Of a stretch of DNA of 64,000 nt, positions 14,502 to 22,148 are shown in pieces. Position numbers and translations under genes: made by a program. The notes beneath the pieces were generated by a model. It searched no databases. It had not been told where the DNA came from and was given only the letters and a program-made list of their open reading frames with translations. Source of the stretch: Myxococcaceae bacterium (lineage in GTDB: Bacteria > Myxococcota > Myxococcia > Myxococcales > Myxococcaceae); NCBI GenBank assembly GCA_025459425.1, contig JALOQF010000007.1, forward strand, positions 1-64,000. The letters are read 5' to 3'. Position 1 is the stretch's first letter. Every line of letters begins with the position of its first letter.

Positions 14502-16469
14502 TCAGCCGTTCTGCATGCTGAGCGAATACGTGGTGCACGTCGGCGCGCTGTTGGCCCGCCGGTACACCTTGATGTCGAAGTCCGCGCCGTCGTCGGTGCC
14601 GAGGCTGCCATCACGCCGGTAGCTGCGAATGTCGCAGGTGGCCTCGTTCATCGAGCACAGGCCCTGCCGCGCCGTCGAGCGCTGCCGGTACACGCACATG
14701 ACGATGTTCGGGTCAGACGCGGTCAGGTTGATGCGCACGTCGAAGTCGTCGCCGAACACGTTGTTGGCGTCCTCGGCGTAGAAGCCAATCCAGTCGACGT
14801 CGTCGGGCGTGGGAATCATGCCGGTGTGCTGCGCCGAGCCGCTCGAGGTGTCACGCAAGACGCCCTTGTAGACGCCCATGCTGCAGAAGGCCGCGGGGTC
14901 CATGCCGAGCTCCTGGCACTCGCACCCGTTCGACAGCATGCCGTCGGTGTCGTGGTAGCCCATGTTGCAGCTCGCGATGCCGCAGGTGCCGTTCATGCAC
15001 GAGGGCGTCGCGTTGGCCACCATGCAGCCCTGGTTGCACGAGGCGCCCGTGGCCGACAGGGGAATGGTGACGATGGTGTTCACCGGGTCGTCGGTCTCGA
15101 TGGACAGCTCTCCGCCGAAGGTGGCCATGGTGTCAGCGCGGAACTCGACCTCGACGACGGCGCGGCCGCCGGTGGCGATGGTGGCGGGCAGCGCGGGCAC
15201 GTTCTTGAGCGAATAGAGGTTCGAGGTGCCGCCGACGAAGGTGATGCGGCGCACGGTGAGGGCGCCGAAGCCGGTGTTCTGCAGCTCGACGGGCCGGGCC
15301 ACCTGCCAGCCCAGCGGCACCGAGCCCCACGCCAGCGTGGTGGGGTTCACCGTCAGCCGTGGCTCGGTGACGGTGCCCCGAATCGGAATCTCGAGGCTCG
15401 GCCGCGCCACGTCGGTCGACGCGATGACGAGGGTGGCGTCGACCAGCCCGGGCATCGAGGCGTCGAGCTCGATGGTGATGGGCAGCCGCGTGAGGGGCAT
15501 CAGCGTGGCGTTCTGCATCGCGTTCGGGAGCGTCGCGCGCACGTTGTTCGACGTGTCGCGCACCGTCACGCCCGACACGAAGAGCGACTGGCCGCCGAGG
15601 TTGGCGAGCTGCACGGTGACGGTGCGCCGCTGGCGTCGGGGCACGTCGCCGAAGTCGATGGCGCGCTCCTCGGGCTCGAGCGCGATGACGCCGTCGATGA
15701 AGCTGGTGCCTTCGACCTCGAACGTCACTTCACCCACCGCCGGCGTCGACGAGCCGATGACGACGTCGCCCCGGTAGTACCCGCGCGTGGCCGGCGAGAA
15801 GCGCACCGGCACCGGCACGCCCGCGTCGGGCACCAGCGCCGTCATCGGCGGCAGCGCCACCGACACCCACGGGTGCCCCGCGTCGGCCTGGTCGAGCGCG
15901 AGCGCGATGTTGCCGAAGCCCGCGTTGCGCACGGTGACGGGCAGCTCCTTCGAGGTGCCCACGGGCACCAGGCCGAACGACACCTTCTCGGGCGTGATGG
16001 CGAGGGCCGGCTCGCCGACGAGGCGCCGCACGATGGGAATCTCGAGCTCGCCGGGCTCGAGGCGGTCCGGGTCGGACTCGTCGGGCGACGCGTCGGTGTA
16101 GGTGACGAGCACCTTGAGGTCGTCGGCCGAGGGCGCGGCCTGCGGCGTGTAGCGCACGTCGACGCCGAAGTCGGCCGCCGCCCCGAGAATGAACGGCGCC
16201 ATCTGCGAGGGCGCCAGCGTGTACTCGGCCGACGCCTTCGAGAGGATGACGCGCTTGATGGCGACGCGCCGGTTCACCGTCGACTGCACCTTCACCAGCA
16301 GCGTGGTGTCGCAGCCGGGCGTGACGCAGGTGAAGGCGAGCTGCCGGGGCAGGGCGCGCAGGCCGCGGAACGGGCCGATGCCGTTGCCCATCACGACGGT
16401 GCCATCGGGCGGCCGGGTGGTGCAGCCGAGCAGCACGAACAGCGGCAGCAGGAAGCGGGTCCAGGTCAT
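14502..16469 (-). CDS. ASH/choice-of-anchor repeat lipoprotein
   Basis: 655 residues, ATG at 16469 with a good Shine-Dalgarno (GAAAGGAG 7-8 bp upstream) and lipoprotein signal (RFLLPLFVLLGC). The body is made of repeated immunoglobulin-like ASH (ASPM-SPD2-Hydin)/choice-of-anchor-D domains: VSFGLVPVGTSKELPVTVRN, AIDFGDVPRRQRRTVTVQLA, LAWGSVPLGWQVARPVELQN, each the motif F-G-x-V-P-x-G plus a beta-strand. A Cys-rich connector (CNQGCMVANATPSCMNGTC) precedes a C-terminal about 100-residue domain. Such proteins are usually extracytoplasmic scaffolds. It is 14 bp downstream of the homologous gene 16484-18223; the two were probably made by duplication and are co-transcribed. Confidence 0.85.
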   Translation of the reverse strand: MTWTRFLLPLFVLLGCTTRPPDGTVVMGNGIGPFRGLRALPRQLAFTCVTPGCDTTLLVKVQSTVNRRVAIKRVILSKASAEYTLAPSQMAPFILGAAADFGVDVRYTPQAAPSADDLKVLVTYTDASPDESDPDRLEPGELEIPIVRRLVGEPALAITPEKVSFGLVPVGTSKELPVTVRNAGFGNIALALDQADAGHPWVSVALPPMTALVPDAGVPVPVRFSPATRGYYRGDVVIGSSTPAVGEVTFEVEGTSFIDGVIALEPEERAIDFGDVPRRQRRTVTVQLANLGGQSLFVSGVTVRDTSNNVRATLPNAMQNATLMPLTRLPITIELDASMPGLVDATLVIASTDVARPSLEIPIRGTVTEPRLTVNPTTLAWGSVPLGWQVARPVELQNTGFGALTVRRITFVGGTSNLYSLKNVPALPATIATGGRAVVEVEFRADTMATFGGELSIETDDPVNTIVTIPLSATGASCNQGCMVANATPSCMNGTCGIASCNMGYHDTDGMLSNGCECQELGMDPAAFCSMGVYKGVLRDTSSGSAQHTGMIPTPDDVDWIGFYAEDANNVFGDDFDVRINLTASDPNIVMCVYRQRSTARQGLCSMNEATCDIRSYRRDGSLGTDDGADFDIKVYRRANSAPTCTTYSLSMQNG

Positions 16470-16483
16470 CGCCGCAGCTCCTT

Positions 16484-18223
16484 TCAGGGGACCGAGAAGG
16501 TGCCGTTGCGCCGCACCAGGTCGAGCACGTAGGCCGAGTCGCCGCGCCGCCCCAGCGAGGTGCTCTTCTCGGCGATGAGCATGCCGTTGACGTAGACCTT
16601 CACGCCCACCGCCGAGCCGCCGCGCGACAGACACACCTGCTCGATGAGGCGCCCCACGTCCTGCCCGGGAATCGGCACGGCGCCCCCGGTGAGGATGTCG
16701 ACCAGCACGTCGACCGAGATGCCCAGAATGCCCGCCAGCAGCGCCGTCGGCAGCGACTTGCAGTCCTGCTGGTACGTCACCTGGACCTTGTAGGTGCCGT
16801 CGGTGCGCGCGTCGGCGAGAATGATGCGCTCGGGCTCTTCCTTCGGCGCGAACGCCAGCCACGACGGCTGCCCGTAGCTGCCCCAGTTCATCGGGTTGGG
16901 GTTGCGCTTGTTGCAGACGTAGCCGAACGGGTGCTCGAGCGTCATGTCGACGTCGCGCACGTCGTTGTCGAAGGCGTTGTCCGACCCGTTGTCGTACGTC
17001 ATCTCGATCTTCACCACCTCGGGGCCGGGCCCGGTGACGCCGTTGGCCATCACGGGAATGGTGATGTTCGGCCGCGCCGGGTCGTTGAGGTTCAGCACCA
17101 GCAGCCCGGTGATGGGGCCCTCGGCGGTGGCGGTGGCGACGACCTGAATCTCGGTGAAGGTGCCGCCCGCGATGTTGGGAATGGCCTGGGGCGCGATGGA
17201 GAGGTCGGTCGAGGGCCGGGTGCCGCCCCAGGTGGTGCGCACGGTGAGCGGCGCGCCGCCCTCGTTGTTGATGGTGATGGGCCGCGAGACGGTGGTGCCC
17301 AGGCGCACGTCACCGAGGTTCACCATCATCGGCGTCACCGTCGCGCGCGGCGGGGTGGCCGAGTTGCCCTGCATCGGAACTCGAATCTCACCTTCGCTCG
17401 TGGCCAGCACCAGCGTGCCCAGCGTGTCGCCGCCGCCGTCGGGCATGCCGGCGCTGCGGGGCGTGAAGCGCGCCTCGAACGACAAGAGCGCCTCGCTGTC
17501 CCGGGTGATGGGCCGCAGCGTGCGCGGCAGCGTCATCGGCTGCACCACCTCGAAGTCGCTCATCGGCGGGTCGACGGTGATGGCTGAGATGGTGATGGGC
17601 GCGGTGCCGGTGCCGCGGTTGGTGAGGGTGACGTTGCGCTTGCCCTGGCGGCCGACGGCGACGTACCCGAAGTCGACCGGGTTGGGCGCGGCGGTGAGGT
17701 TGGGCGAGCCGATGTAGTTGGCGCGCACGGGCAGGCGGAACGTCGGGTACTCCTTGTCGTCCGACAGAATGCGCACCTCGTTCGCCTGCGGCACGGGCTC
17801 GCCCGGCGTCCACTTGAGCGTCAGCTCGACGTTGCGGCCGGGGAACACCTCTTTGGGGAAGTTCGAGCCGCAGAACTCGCAGTCGAGGCCCGCGTCGGCC
17901 TTCGCGAGCGTCGTCTCGAAGAGCGTGAGGGTGCAGTTGCCGATGTTCGACAGCAGAATCTTCTTCTCGACCGGCGCGTTCGAGGTGGTGGTGCCGAAGT
18001 CGACCGTGTGCGGCGTGGGCTGGAGAATCGGCGTGCCGTCGTTGACGTTCTCACACGTCTTGGCGTTCTTCGGCACGCACTCGAAGTTCTCGCAGAGGTA
18101 GGCGCCGGGGCAGTCCACGTCGGCGCGGCAGTAGGTGATCATGCTCACCTGCTGGGTGCGGTCGCAGGCGGTGAGCGCACACACCGCGGCGACGAGGGCG
18201 AGGGGCAACGTGCTGGTGTTCAT
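16484..18223 (-). CDS. ASH-repeat lipoprotein with Cys-rich N-terminus
   Basis: 579 residues from ATG 18223, with a lipoprotein signal (LVAAVCALTAC). A short Cys module (YCRADVDCPGAYLCENFEC) resembles the small motif found after many myxobacterial lipoprotein anchors. ASH-type Ig-like repeats follow: HTVDFGTTTSNAPVEKKIL, PNPVDFGYVAVGRQGKRNV, MMVNLGDVRLGTTVSRPI. The C-terminal about 180 residues form a different beta domain (MTYDNGSDNAFDNDVRDVD, YKVQVTYQQDCKS). Probably an exported structural or binding protein; the function is inferred only from the domains. First gene of the operon 18223-13024. Confidence 0.85.
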   Translation of the reverse strand: MNTSTLPLALVAAVCALTACDRTQQVSMITYCRADVDCPGAYLCENFECVPKNAKTCENVNDGTPILQPTPHTVDFGTTTSNAPVEKKILLSNIGNCTLTLFETTLAKADAGLDCEFCGSNFPKEVFPGRNVELTLKWTPGEPVPQANEVRILSDDKEYPTFRLPVRANYIGSPNLTAAPNPVDFGYVAVGRQGKRNVTLTNRGTGTAPITISAITVDPPMSDFEVVQPMTLPRTLRPITRDSEALLSFEARFTPRSAGMPDGGGDTLGTLVLATSEGEIRVPMQGNSATPPRATVTPMMVNLGDVRLGTTVSRPITINNEGGAPLTVRTTWGGTRPSTDLSIAPQAIPNIAGGTFTEIQVVATATAEGPITGLLVLNLNDPARPNITIPVMANGVTGPGPEVVKIEMTYDNGSDNAFDNDVRDVDMTLEHPFGYVCNKRNPNPMNWGSYGQPSWLAFAPKEEPERIILADARTDGTYKVQVTYQQDCKSLPTALLAGILGISVDVLVDILTGGAVPIPGQDVGRLIEQVCLSRGGSAVGVKVYVNGMLIAEKSTSLGRRGDSAYVLDLVRRNGTFSVP

Positions 18224-18949
18224 GGAGGTCCTCGAAAAACTACCACGGCGGGCGCAGACACGAAGGAGGCGGCCACCTCCTCCCCGGAAACGGCCTCGCA
18301 CGCTACCCTACTTGGGCCACGAGGAGGATCGGGGCTCGCCGTTTCCGTTGGGTGACGAAGGTTCGCGCGGCACCTTCTCGGGTTGAGCGACCCCGCCTCC
18401 GGTCAATCCAAGAGAAGTCGACGGCTGCGGAGTCCACCGGGCGCTTACCGCATCGGCTCACTGCAGAGAGAAGTCGACGGCTGCGGAGTCCACCGGGCCC
18501 TCACCGCCTCCGCTTCATGAGCTCGAGAACGTGCACGCGAGCGCGGAGAAGGACCGGGCCCGAGGGCATGCTGCCCGAGGCCGAGCGTGCCGTCGAGGCG
18601 TCCTTCGCCGCGCGCGCCAGCACGTCGAGGTCGTCGAACGAGGCTCGCTGGGTGAGGCCGAACGCAGCCTGGGCGCTCGTTCGGCGTGAAGCGGCCCGGC
18701 GCGTCGATGGTGCGGTCCGGCGGCGAGATGGCGTTCAACGACCAGGACGTCGGGGCCGGGGACGTGAGGAAGCCCTCGTCGACGCAGCGGTCGTGGGGAA
18801 TCCGTTGGAGCCCGCCAGAGCAGCGCTCGTCACGGCGCCACCCTCGCGTCGACTTCCAGGCCGTGCGCGAAGACGGGCGTCGCACGTCGTCACCACGCAC
18901 CGTCAGGGAGCGAAGCGCGAGAAACGCCGCCGCGCGCCGGGCCCCGGCC
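18224..18949. other. 726-bp region without a supportable gene
   Basis: Open frames exist on both strands, but none has the third-position GC bias, start context or recognisable motifs of neighbouring genes. It contains a 32-bp direct repeat (18411 and 18467). The promoter of the leftward operon starting at 18223 is expected at its left end, and the 3' end of the stressosome operon at its right end. It may be gene debris. Confidence 0.5.
18411..18498. repeat. 32-bp direct repeat, 56-bp period
   Basis: A perfect 32-bp sequence beginning agagaagtcgacggctgcgg occurs at 18411-18442 and again at 18467-18498, with weaker similarity continuing about 10 bp to the right of each copy. It is in a gene-free region. 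It may be the remains of a local tandem duplication. Confidence 0.85.
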
Positions 18950-19357
18950 TCAGGTGTCGGACTTGTAGAAGTCCAGCGGCAGGTGCTTCACCTCGTTCTC
19001 GAGCCAGCTGAGGGCCTCGGCCTCAGTGCCGACCAGCCGCACGAAGGTCGACCGGCTGACCCGCAGCACGAAGCCCAACGTCACGCGCACCGCCGTGTTC
19101 GAGACGACGATGGCGGTCTTGGGTGTCGTCTTGCGGGTGCTCCCCTCGCCGATGGTGCCCAGGTTTCGCCGCGCCTCGGGCGAGAACGACGCGCCGGGGA
19201 CGATGAACGAGATGATGGGCTTGCCCTCGTGCGGGGCGTTGGCGCCGACCACCTTGCGCAAGGCGAAGGCCTCTTCACCCGTGGCCAGGCCCGACGTCAG
19301 AATATACACATATTCGTGACCGGTCGGGAGCTTCCTGATTTCCCATGTAATTGGCAT
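18950..19357 (-). CDS. STAS/SpoIIAA-like protein
   Basis: A 135-residue small alpha/beta protein (MPITWEIRKLPTGHEYVY, AFALRKVVGANAPHEGKP, VSNTAVRVTLGFVLRVS, AEALSWLENEVKHL). The strand-helix order and the closing helix match SpoIIAA-like/STAS-SEC14-type proteins common in myxobacteria. It lacks an obvious DSxG phosphorylation motif, so it may be a partner rather than a phospho-switch. The GGAG ten bases before the ATG supports the start. It is the last gene of the leftward stressosome-type operon, 24 bp after the RsbR-like gene. Confidence 0.7.
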   Translation of the reverse strand: MPITWEIRKLPTGHEYVYILTSGLATGEEAFALRKVVGANAPHEGKPIISFIVPGASFSPEARRNLGTIGEGSTRKTTPKTAIVVSNTAVRVTLGFVLRVSRSTFVRLVGTEAEALSWLENEVKHLPLDFYKSDT

Positions 19358-19381
19358 TGATGTGCTCCAGCGAGGGGGAAG

Positions 19382-20005
19382 TTATTCGACCGTGGTCTTG
19401 ACGCCCAGGTCGTCGAAGATGACCTTCAAGGCGTCGCTCATGCGGCGCAGCGTGCGGATGCGCGACGTGTCGATGCCCAGCTGCGCGATGGTCTGCGCGA
19501 TGGCCGGGCTGATGCCGGTGAGGAAGCAGGTGGCGCCCACGAGGCGAACCGCCTCGCTCATGCGAATGAAGCTGTCGGCCGTGCGCGTATCGACGACCGA
19601 CACGCCGGTGATGTCGATGACGACGTACTCGGCCTGGTCACTCGCCACCCGGCTCAAGAGCGCCTCGGTCATCTCGGCGCCGCGGAGCGTGTCGACCATG
19701 CCGATGACGGGCAGCGTGAGCACCCCGTCCCACACCGAGATGATGGGCGTCGACAGCTCGCGCAGCGCCATCGCGGCGCGGTTGGCGATCTCTTCGTTCT
19801 TCTTCTCGATCTCGGCGATGTACGCGGTTCGGGCCGCCTCGGCGGCCTCGAGGTCCTCGATCATGATGTTCAGCCCGAGCTCGACGTGCAGGAACTCGTC
19901 TTCGACGGGCTCGTCGGGCAGGTCGATGCGGTGCTGGTATTCCTTGCAAGCTGCGCGGGCCATCACTTCGACGACGCGATCGATTCGTTGGGGGTCGATG
20001 TCCAT
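19382..20005 (-). CDS. RsbR-like stressosome protein
   Basis: 207 residues. The N-terminal part (1-85) is helical, ending in a coiled-coil linker (ARTAYIAEIEKKNEEIANR), and takes the place of the globin-like sensor of B. subtilis RsbR. The C-terminal STAS domain is strongly RsbR-like: ELSTPIISVWDGVLTLPVIG, VIDITGVSVVDTRTADSFI, EAVRLVGATCFLTGISPAIAQTIAQLGID. The Thr of VVDT and of IAQT correspond to the two RsbT phosphorylation sites of RsbR. In stressosomes RsbR and RsbS form the shell that holds RsbT; this one probably senses an unknown input. It follows the second ATPase gene by 9 bp. Confidence 0.88.
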   Translation of the reverse strand: MDIDPQRIDRVVEVMARAACKEYQHRIDLPDEPVEDEFLHVELGLNIMIEDLEAAEAARTAYIAEIEKKNEEIANRAAMALRELSTPIISVWDGVLTLPVIGMVDTLRGAEMTEALLSRVASDQAEYVVIDITGVSVVDTRTADSFIRMSEAVRLVGATCFLTGISPAIAQTIAQLGIDTSRIRTLRRMSDALKVIFDDLGVKTTVE

Positions 20006-20014
20006 GTGTGCCTT

Positions 20015-20455
20015 TCACCTGAAGGGAGTCAGCTCGGCTTCGGCCTCGACGGAGGCGCCGGGGTTCAAGTTCTTGAGCGACAGGCGCGTGGACAGGCGGC
20101 GAACGCTGGCCAGACCGGCGCCGAAGGTGCGCCCCACCTGGTCGCGAGGCCGCACGCCATGAAGCCCGAGGGCGTCGCTGCGCCCACCGTCGGCGAGCAC
20201 GGCCTCGCTGAAGCCGGGCCCGCGGTCGACCACCTCGACCAGCCAGCCCGCGCGCGACACCCGCAACGAGACGCTGCCGCCACGCCCGTGGACGACGGCG
20301 TTCGAGCCGAGCTCGGCGACGACCAGCGCCAGGTGCTCGGCCTGGGCCGGGGTGAGCCCATGGTCGAGCCCCGTCTGCCGCGCCTCGGCCGCCAGGGCCC
20401 GGACGTCGACGAGCGAGGCCACGCGTGCGCTCGACGGCTTGACGCCGGCGCTCAC
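20015..20455 (-). CDS. Anti-sigma/RsbT-family ATPase (second copy)
   Basis: 146 residues of the GHKL ATPase family (RsbT/RsbW/SpoIIAB type). The N box is in LALVVAELGSNAVVHGRGG, the G1 box is VVDRGPGFSE, and VGRTFGAGLASVRRLSTRL is the G2/closing helix, so ATP binding looks intact. It may phosphorylate a STAS partner. Starts with GTG, overlapping the stop of the phosphatase gene as GTGA (translational coupling). With the 213-residue RsbT at 21039-21680 this makes two ATPases in one operon. Whether it is an RsbW-like anti-sigma factor or a second RsbT cannot be told from sequence alone; no sigma-B gene is in the window. Confidence 0.85.
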   Translation of the reverse strand: MSAGVKPSSARVASLVDVRALAAEARQTGLDHGLTPAQAEHLALVVAELGSNAVVHGRGGSVSLRVSRAGWLVEVVDRGPGFSEAVLADGGRSDALGLHGVRPRDQVGRTFGAGLASVRRLSTRLSLKNLNPGASVEAEAELTPFR

Positions 20456-21042
20456 GAGGCCGCCCCTTCGACGTCGATGACCACGAGCGAGACGTCGTCG
20501 GTGTCTCGCCCGGCCTTCGCCATCAACGTGTCGGCCAGCGTCGTCGCGGGCTTCGTCGTCAGCTGCGTGATGAGCGGCCCCGCCTCACGGGCGTTGAGGC
20601 CGTCGGACGCGAGGACCCACCGCTGGCCGCTGCGCATTGGCAGCGTGAAGGCGCGGAAGCGGTAGGCGCCTCCGCCGAGGGTGCCCGCCATGCTGACGGG
20701 CCGGTTGACCTCGGTGGGTGAGAAGATCTCGACGTTGCCGACCCCCGCGAACGTGAAGGTGGCCGCCTGCGCGAGCAGGCCGCCCATCACCACGCCCCGC
20801 CGCTTCGAGAGCGCGCGGTGCACGGCGGCGAACACGGTCTCGAGGGGACTGCCAGCTGAGGCCCGAATGGCGGCCTCGGCCGCGCGCGCGCTGTCTTCGG
20901 CCTCGGGCCCGTGCCCGAGCGCATCGATGACGGCGATGAAGTGCCAGTCGGGAGCGATCGCCTCGACGACGGCGTCGCCACACGAGCTCAACCCTGCCAT
21001 CGGCCGCACGCGGTGCTCGAGCTTGAGCCGCACGCCACTCAT
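20452..21042 (-). CDS. RsbX-like PP2C (SpoIIE-family) phosphatase
   Basis: 196 residues, the same size as B. subtilis RsbX. PP2C/SpoIIE metal-binding motifs are visible: CGDAVVEA, VIDALGHGPEAEDSA (DxxGHG), WVLASDGLNA and DDVSLVVIDV. RsbX dephosphorylates RsbS and RsbR and resets the stressosome; that is the inferred role here. It overlaps the upstream RsbT gene by ATGA and the downstream ATPase by GTGA, implying coupled translation and fixed stoichiometry. An RsbU-like output phosphatase (with an RsbT-binding N-terminal domain) would be longer, which favours RsbX. Confidence 0.88.
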   Translation of the reverse strand: MSGVRLKLEHRVRPMAGLSSCGDAVVEAIAPDWHFIAVIDALGHGPEAEDSARAAEAAIRASAGSPLETVFAAVHRALSKRRGVVMGGLLAQAATFTFAGVGNVEIFSPTEVNRPVSMAGTLGGGAYRFRAFTLPMRSGQRWVLASDGLNAREAGPLITQLTTKPATTLADTLMAKAGRDTDDVSLVVIDVEGAAS

Positions 21043-21680
21043 GTCTTCCTCGCCGCCTTCGACCCCTGAATCCGGGTGCCGAGCCCCGGCTTGGTGTCGA
21101 TCTGCAGCTGGTCGAGCAGCGCCTTGACGCCGAGGAGCCCGCGGCCCAGGCCCGTGCGCGAGCGGTACCCGCCCGACAGAATGAGGTCCAGGTCTCGAAT
21201 GCCGGGCCCCTGGTCGCGCGCCTCGACGGTGAACAGCATGCGAGTCTGTTCCTCCGCCAGCTTCAAGCCGAGCTCGCCGCCGCCGGCATACATGTACATG
21301 TTTCGGGCCAGCTCCGAGACGGCCGTCGCCAGCCGAACGCACTCGGTCGGTGAGTAGTAGCCCTTGACCAGGTATTGGGTCGAGCGCTGCGCCGTGAGCA
21401 CGTCGGTGTCCAGCGCCACCTTGAGGTTCTGCTCGTTCGGGCGCGCGAGGCCGCCACCGGTGATGGCCGCGCGAAGGACCCGCGCCGGCAGGGGCTGGGC
21501 TCCCAGGGTGTACAGCCGGCCGGCGGTGTCGAGCTGCACCATCAGCTCCCGCACCTCGCAGACGTCGAGCGAGCCGACGGCCTGGGTGATGAAGGCCGGT
21601 GACGTCTTCAGCACCCGCTCGGCATTGCGCCCGAGCAGGCCGTGCAACACGGGCGTCAAGCTGTCCAGGACACTCGACAT
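21039..21680 (-). CDS. RsbT-like switch kinase with N-terminal extension
   Basis: 213 residues. Residues about 110-213 match RsbT closely: AVSELARNMYMYAGGGELG (N box), EARDQGPGIRDLDLILSGG (G1) and GLGRGLLGVKALLDQLQI (G2). RsbT normally is about 133 residues; here an extra about 85 residues precede the kinase (LTPVLHGLLGRNAERVLKT, VRELMVQLDTAGRLYTLG), of unknown fold and possibly a localisation or partner-binding domain. RsbT phosphorylates RsbR/RsbS and, when freed, activates a phosphatase. The gene is 3 bp after the RsbS gene. The downstream target is not visible in the window. Confidence 0.9.
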   Translation of the reverse strand: MSSVLDSLTPVLHGLLGRNAERVLKTSPAFITQAVGSLDVCEVRELMVQLDTAGRLYTLGAQPLPARVLRAAITGGGLARPNEQNLKVALDTDVLTAQRSTQYLVKGYYSPTECVRLATAVSELARNMYMYAGGGELGLKLAEEQTRMLFTVEARDQGPGIRDLDLILSGGYRSRTGLGRGLLGVKALLDQLQIDTKPGLGTRIQGSKAARKT

Positions 21681-21683
21681 CGG

Positions 21684-22148
21684 TCACTCGACCTCGACGA
21701 TGCGAATCTTCAGCTTCGTCAGCGCGCGCTCGAGCGTCAGCGCCGTCTCGACCTGGCGGAGGTCGACGCCGAGCTCGATGAGCGTCATGGCGACGGCCGG
21801 GCGAATGCCGACGAGCACGGCCTTGACCCCGAACTGGGACGCGATGCTGGCGGTCTCGCCGAGGATCTTCGCCGCGAAGCTGTCGATCAGGCTCAGCGCC
21901 GAGACGTCGATGACGAGGCCGCGAACCCCGTCGGCCTTCGAGAGACGGTGACTCACGGTCTCCTGAAGAAACCGCGCCTGCGAGTCGCTCAACTCGGCGG
22001 GGACGCTGACGAACACCGACGGCCCCAACCGCAGCACTGGAATGAAGTTCTCTACCTGGTTCAGAACGGCCTCGATCCTCGTGAATCCCTTGATCCGACT
22101 GGAGTGAACCCCACGGGCGGCCGATGTCAACAAGTCGGCCAGCGGCAC
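21684..22148 (-). CDS. RsbS-like STAS protein
   Basis: 154 residues, GTG at 22148. The STAS domain is strongly RsbS-like: VLRLGPSVFVSVPAELSD, VIDVSALSLIDSFAAKILGE (Ser of IDSF corresponds to phosphorylated Ser59 of RsbS) and GVKAVLVGIRPAVAMTLIEL. RsbS is the co-scaffold of the stressosome. The first about 28 residues (VPLADLLTSAARGVHSSRIK) have no counterpart and the start may be downstream, but no better ATG/GTG is available. First gene of the leftward operon 22148-18950 and divergent from the beta-propeller gene at 22334 (185 bp between starts, holding both promoters). Confidence 0.88.
   Translation of the reverse strand: MPLADLLTSAARGVHSSRIKGFTRIEAVLNQVENFIPVLRLGPSVFVSVPAELSDSQARFLQETVSHRLSKADGVRGLVIDVSALSLIDSFAAKILGETASIASQFGVKAVLVGIRPAVAMTLIELGVDLRQVETALTLERALTKLKIRIVEVE

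Follow-up and report, generated by a model that had tools for sequence, protein, structure and literature searches.

The stressosome is a large protein hub involved in stress sensing in bacteria. The core formed by RsbR, RsbS, RsbT and RsbX (RSTX) is widespread (PMC9237108), and has been described both in the sigma-B pathway of Bacillus subtilis (RsbR/S/T/U/V/W/X) and in Gram-negative bacteria such as Vibrio vulnificus and V. brasiliensis, where the module operates with no sigma-B cascade (PMC9237108; PMC4976288). Here, we analyzed a six-gene operon encoded on the minus strand (22148-18950) of a 64,000-nucleotide stretch (the window) of contig JALOQF010000007.1 from a Myxococcaceae bacterium (GCA_025459425.1; 8.4 Mb assembly, ~90% complete). 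In transcriptional order, the operon encodes RsbS, RsbT, RsbX, a second GHKL ATPase (ATP2), RsbR and a SpoIIAA-like protein (AA). In our view, this locus very probably encodes a Myxococcota-type stressosome acting through the mechanism proposed below. Our literature search found no description of the additional elements of this operon, nor of any myxobacterial stressosome.

Comparison of the operon with described stressosome systems

The window had been predicted to contain a complete stressosome-type operon of six leftward genes, and our analysis located all six open reading frames (ORFs) at the expected positions with matching domains (Table 1). The genes are tightly packed, as rsbT-rsbX and rsbX-ATP2 each overlap by 4 bp and the remaining gaps are 3, 9 and 24 bp. 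The phosphorylation sites and ATPase boxes were likewise found to be kept. These include S90 of RsbS (in the LIDS motif, numbered from the GTG-started ORF), T140 (VVDT) and T172 (IAQT) of RsbR, N127, D156, G158 and G160 of RsbT, and E48, N52, H56, D77, G79 and G81 of ATP2, whose N box is of the SpoIIAB/RsbW type (E..xN..xH); the sites of RsbR, RsbT and ATP2 are invariant in the alignments of relatives. The Asp motifs of PP2C phosphatases are readable in RsbX, which has 59% identity to RsbX of an Archangium metagenome-assembled genome (MAG; locus L050). RsbS shares 65-82% identity with the RsbS of neighboring taxa (80% to Archangium RsbS across residues 33-154). Since its relatives begin there, and their starts line up with a CTG codon that follows a GAGG, the true start of RsbS is probably this CTG at 22064, 28 codons downstream of the ORF start, giving a predicted protein of 126 amino acids.

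The operon shares with the Vibrio RSTX module its RsbR/S/T/X proteins, the phosphorylation sites and the lack of a sigma-B cascade. In contrast to that module, the operon has an RsbT with an N-terminal domain, a separate gene for a second ATPase, a HAMP-like RsbR in place of a globin-coupled one and an additional SpoIIAA-like gene, and it has no linked two-component or cyclic di-GMP gene downstream. With B. subtilis, the operon likewise shares RsbR/S/T/X and their phosphorylation sites, whereas in this genome (bearing in mind its ~90% completeness) there was no match to RsbU_N at E values up to 1, and no sigma factor of the SigB/F/G type scored over the cut-off (best TIGR02980 at 140 bits against 234). 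The original prediction took the absence of sigma-B and RsbU as a sign that the output differs from that of Bacillus. The absence holds genome-wide, but RSTX modules of Gram-negative bacteria usually lack both (PMC9237108), and this feature therefore does not mark a special system. No sigma-B partner was found near the operon or in any neighborhood examined in relatives, a result that leaves the stressosome assignment standing.

Four SpoIIE and four STAS matches were detected in the genome, including those of the operon itself. Among the other SpoIIE-type proteins, C552 adjoins a separate ATPase gene, C483 adjoins a Ser/Thr kinase, and C390 lies in a chemosensory-like cluster with STAS and ATPase genes; none of the three is linked to the stressosome operon. 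Hsp70-like and amidotransferase-like genes flanking the operon in Myxococcus were considered as a conserved output neighbor and rejected, as they are common to near relatives only and absent elsewhere; no neighboring gene was conserved over a wider range. By every feature that could be assessed here from sequence and predicted structure, the operon is a member of the RSTX stressosome group and not a sigma-B pathway.

Table 1. Positions of the operon features in the window, and of H-NOX genes at two related loci
Feature	Position	Strand	Evidence
RsbS, single STAS domain, phospho-Ser in LIDS	21684..22148	-	STAS 1e-10
RsbT, extended switch kinase, 213 amino acids	21039..21680	-	HATPase_c 2e-6
RsbT N-terminal helical extension, ~residues 1-80	21441..21680	-	model helices and profile homology
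RsbX-like PP2C phosphatase, 196 amino acids, single-domain	20452..21042	-	SpoIIE 5e-6, 27 bits (cut-off 25)
ATP2, second GHKL ATPase, 146 amino acids	20015..20455	-	HATPase_c_2 2e-10
RsbR, 207 amino acids, HAMP-like N-terminus, long helix, STAS with two phospho-Thr	19382..20005	-	STAS 5e-14
RsbR HAMP-like segment and connecting helix, residues 1-83	19757..20005	-	hhalign to HAMP domains
AA, SpoIIAA-like, 135 amino acids, without classical phospho-Ser motif	18950..19357	-	family profile to PDB 3bl4
H-NOX (haem-NO-binding), stressosome operon of G074	L146:1409-1951	-	PF07700 3e-36
H-NOX (haem-NO-binding), stressosome operon of G078	L148:4378-4926	+	PF07700 2e-34

The HAMP-like RsbR and its candidate input partners

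Searches with the RsbR sequence retrieved the solved stressosome RsbRs of Vibrio and Listeria from the PDB far above chance (E 5e-29 to 2e-24). In a fold search with the predicted structure the best PDB match was again the Listeria stressosome RsbR (E 2e-13, 33% identity), so that the structural check also agrees with a stressosome. In the model, which is of moderate confidence, a helix (residues 5-19) and a connector precede a second helix (residues 37-84) that runs into the STAS domain.

The sensor half of RsbR had been described as a short helical domain that is not globin-like. It is indeed not globin-like; it is, however, more than a short helical domain, as both profile and model identify it as HAMP-like. 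The profile of the N-terminus aligned with 14 HAMP domains from the same genome (hhalign probability 93.6, E 2e-7; shuffled controls, E 0.19-0.43). A soluble histidine kinase of genome G013 was also matched, at its N-terminus (E 1e-13), as was a membrane HAMP domain of G038 (E 4e-4). We use the term HAMP-like because the segment falls below the Pfam cut-off for HAMP (PF00672), with no match in the RsbR of the window and 17.8 bits against a cut-off of 25 in the best relative. In distant RsbRs of this class the HAMP-like repeats are weaker (E 2e-4), and one such protein has a PAS domain. Judged by these comparisons, the short N-terminus of RsbR is HAMP-like and harbors no sensor domain. No paper joining a stressosome, a HAMP domain and a STAS domain was found in our literature search.

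Since RsbR has no sensor domain, its input would probably come from a separately encoded partner, which could be AA in this operon and an H-NOX protein in some relatives. AA lies beside most Myxococcaceae copies of the operon and evolves fast (37% identity where RsbR keeps 78%). The protein in the window matched DUF7793 below threshold only and did not match PF11964, a family whose cut-off is passed by the Citreicoccus relative (26.1 bits); the profile of the AA family matches PDB 3bl4 with an E value of 1e-6. In G074 and G078, which belong to another family, an H-NOX gene is located directly after ATP2 (Table 1), and the literature searched yielded no case of a stressosome tied to a separately encoded gas sensor. 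We hypothesize that AA and H-NOX occupy the slot of an exchangeable input partner of the sensor-less RsbR. The presence of a HAMP-only RsbR beside H-NOX in some genomes means that a defined ligand (nitric oxide or O2) could be tied to a stressosome.

The extended RsbT and the second ATPase

The ~85 additional N-terminal residues noted in RsbT by the original prediction are conserved across relatives and predicted to be folded. Within this extension of ~80-85 residues, the AlphaFold model places helices at residues 4-25, 40-57 and 66-74 with high confidence, and the mean predicted local distance difference test (pLDDT) score of the whole model is 92.8. Full-length identity to Archangium relatives is 53-57%, and in a PDB fold search with the complete model the top matches were the ATPases SpoIIAB and RsbW. 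The extension itself had no match in Pfam or among PDB sequences and no evident PDB fold match, and its identification as RsbU_N or another known domain was rejected on these grounds. A weak match of RsbT to YbaK (E 0.02-0.3) falls in the ATPase part and was taken as chance. The extensions of distant Myxococcota are homologous to that of the window (hhalign probability 91.8, E 7e-7; column-shuffled controls, E 0.14-0.79), and the extended RsbTs form a single clade (95/80) adjoining the RsbT-like domains of hybrid histidine kinases at other stressosome loci (97/97).

A search of 195 genomes of the phylum identified RsbT relatives in 69. Full-length extended RsbT was found in all listed genomes of the genus Myxococcus (g23) and in additional genera of the Myxococcaceae. 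It also occurs in six Myxococcota genomes from other families, at loci that encode R, S, X and a separate ATP2 as well, with the gene order shuffled. The nearest relatives of the operon come from Archangium and Myxococcaceae records, and six genomes of the same genus do not carry it. The Archangium MAG has the identical six genes in identical order (L050), together with a second copy (L048:5614-7729) arranged S-T-R-AA, without RsbX and ATP2. The same gene set is ordered AA-S-T-X-ATP2-R in G010, and Myxococcus, Pyxidicoccus and Citreicoccus have ATP2-T-X-S-R, mostly plus AA. A Myxococcus-type locus is also present in a record labelled Comamonas sp. KCTC 72670 (L060; 9.0 Mb genome), a label that is probably wrong. 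On the evidence of these comparisons, extended RsbT, separate ATP2 and HAMP-like RsbR are an unusual, co-inherited set that recurs across Myxococcota.

A different arrangement, R-S-T-[ATPase::SpoIIE], occurs at loci of Myxococcota and Acidobacteriota with a short RsbT (L040, L041, L042, L052, L155 and L156). These loci share with the operon one ATPase of the RsbT kind, a second GHKL ATPase and a PP2C domain per locus, but have a short RsbT, a fusion of the second ATPase to RsbX, and an RsbR with an RsbRD_N (L042) or protoglobin (L155, L156) domain. Downstream of two of them (L042:5764-8568 and L052:5506-7755) are hybrid histidine kinases with an RsbT-like HATPase_c_2 domain before HisKA-HATPase-REC, and it is these RsbT-like domains that are the nearest relatives of extended RsbT. 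L155 (G160) and L156 (G145) make up another stressosome type, composed of RsbS, a protoglobin RsbR, a short RsbT and ATPase::RsbX; G160 holds both this and the extended-RsbT type.

The second ATPase, seen in the original prediction as a possible branch or link to another STAS protein, is present and is not peculiar to this locus. Many other stressosome loci carry one, encoded separately where RsbT is extended and joined to RsbX where RsbT is short. Among 24 extended-RsbT loci, 21 have a separate ATP2 gene, three have no second ATPase and none has a fused form, while the short-RsbT loci comprise 11 with an ATPase domain fused to RsbX, eight with none and one exception (G039) with a separate ATPase. 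Thus, where a second ATPase is kept, it is separate at 21/21 extended-RsbT loci versus 1/12 short-RsbT loci. These counts were compiled by hand and the pattern spans families; the loci counted are related by descent, and a Fisher value therefore overstates significance. The possibility that ATP2 is a split form of the ATPase::RsbX fusion was suggested by synteny, but the trees were not decisive (support of 92/92 in one and 73/84 in another; approximately unbiased (AU) test p 0.57, with an outgroup that is too distant), and we retained it solely as a functional lead.

The same counts bear on whether the locus is an ordinary RSTX stressosome in which ATP2, AA and the extension are loose neighbors or minor elaborations without a separate function. 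The wide occurrence of the core, the variation of gene order and accessory genes from locus to locus and the absence of the operon from six genomes of its own genus are in line with this view. We nevertheless consider it quite improbable, as mere decoration is not expected to stay coupled to the type of RsbT over such deep divergence, and the boxes of ATP2 remain invariant.

The fusion of a comparable ATPase domain to RsbX at short-RsbT loci points to cooperation with RsbX in controlling reset as the likeliest single role of the SpoIIAB/RsbW-like ATP2, an assignment we hold tentatively and at somewhat less than an even chance. ATP2 could otherwise be an RsbW/SpoIIAB-like kinase of AA (or of RsbS/RsbR) opposed by RsbX, so that one operon would contain two partner switches. 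The type of its N box, with E, N and H conserved, would suit such a second branch, as would the fact that ATP2, X and AA share an operon in the window and in L050 and that AA accompanies most Myxococcaceae copies. However, the AA alignment shows no conserved Ser/Thr in the SpoIIAA-type phospho-motif, ATP2 has no accompanying AA in L054, L060, L063 and L065 or at most of the distant loci, and in L048 it is AA that stands without ATP2, which makes this arrangement somewhat unlikely.

Proposed mechanism and gene loss in Myxococcus

By analogy with described systems, the STAS domains of RsbR and RsbS would build a core that holds extended RsbT, whose extension most likely assists its docking on the core or its partners. 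A signal would reach RsbR via the HAMP-like segment; RsbT would then phosphorylate RsbS (Ser90) and RsbR (Thr140/Thr172), leave the core and act on a target encoded elsewhere, and RsbX would reset the core. The analysis shows the gene content, motifs, conservation, co-occurrence and HAMP kinship and provides the RsbT and RsbR models, whereas all the dynamics, what is targeted and what ATP2 and AA do are inferred. We favor this stressosome because of its motifs and domains, the solved RsbRs that lead both the sequence and the fold searches, the shared gene sets, the co-occurrence of RsbT type and ATP2, the HAMP kinship, and two observations from Myxococcus relatives, namely that a HAMP-type RsbR is encoded elsewhere when the operon has lost its own and that the extension evolves faster where RsbR and RsbS have been lost.

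The first of these observations comes from Myxococcus-type loci L054, L059 and L060, where the operon lacks RsbR and keeps RsbS, and a HAMP-type RsbR is present elsewhere in each genome. In G028 and the genomes of L061, L063 and L065, no RsbR or RsbS was found genome-wide and RsbX is gone or a fragment; the RsbT frame is intact in all of them, and L063 and L065 have an intact ATP2 as well. Of the operon, only ATP2-RsbT survives intact in M. xanthus AM003 and Myxococcus sp. CA023, two genomes in which neither RsbR nor RsbS was found. Stepwise loss of stressosome genes can be followed at L063:4053-5248, L065:5102-6297, L047:4868-5521 and L061, with ATP2-RsbT or RsbT as the endpoint. In these core-less genomes the ATPase part of RsbT is under purifying selection, with a ratio of nonsynonymous to synonymous substitution rates (dN/dS) of about 0.15-0.24. 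The extension has a dN/dS of 0.5-0.74 there versus 0.11-0.39 in genomes with RsbS, a comparison drawn from few, non-independent pairs. The faster evolution of the extension where RsbR and RsbS are lost suggests that it serves the RsbR/RsbS core.

Several points weigh against the stressosome mechanism as proposed. The dN/dS contrast carries the limitation just given, the RsbR model is only moderately confident in its HAMP part, and the orthology of ATP2 and the RsbX-fused ATPase is not settled by the trees (73/84; AU p 0.57). In addition, the M. xanthus group keeps RsbT, mostly with ATP2, without RsbR or RsbS, so that some of the operon's products may have a role apart from a stressosome. Extended RsbT and ATP2 could accordingly be a signaling pair, possibly a heterodimeric kinase, that is independent of RsbR/RsbS and has the stressosome as an optional regulator. 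Beyond their retention in AM003 and CA023, this would be in keeping with the purifying selection on the ATPase part of RsbT and with the building of RsbT-kind domains into hybrid histidine kinases elsewhere. Yet the accelerated extension in the same genomes looks like early decay, as does the dN/dS of 0.71 between ATP2 of L063 and L065 (on few changes), and G028 and G122 keep RsbT with no ATP2 detected beside it. We therefore regard an independent pair as unlikely.

A broader proposal, which we put forward as speculative and rather doubtful, is that Myxococcota possess a distinct stressosome class, with RsbR serving purely as a HAMP relay for exchangeable separate sensors (AA, H-NOX) and an extended RsbT-ATP2 pair that can function without the RsbR/RsbS core, as the retention of the pair in the M. 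xanthus group would suggest. The stressosome we favor bears on two questions in Gram-negative bacteria, how signals enter a stressosome and what RsbT does without sigma-B; genetically tractable Myxococcus strains that have lost RsbR/RsbS and kept RsbT would offer a direct way to see what RsbT is capable of by itself.

Finally, a search for defense systems with PADLOC returned no meaningful match. At 14502-18301 of the window, on the minus strand, are two adjacent genes for long, secreted-looking proteins with repeated 'xxFGxVxxGxxxxxxVxxxNxG' segments; these proteins cluster as paralogues and appear by eye to be choice-of-anchor/Hydin-like.

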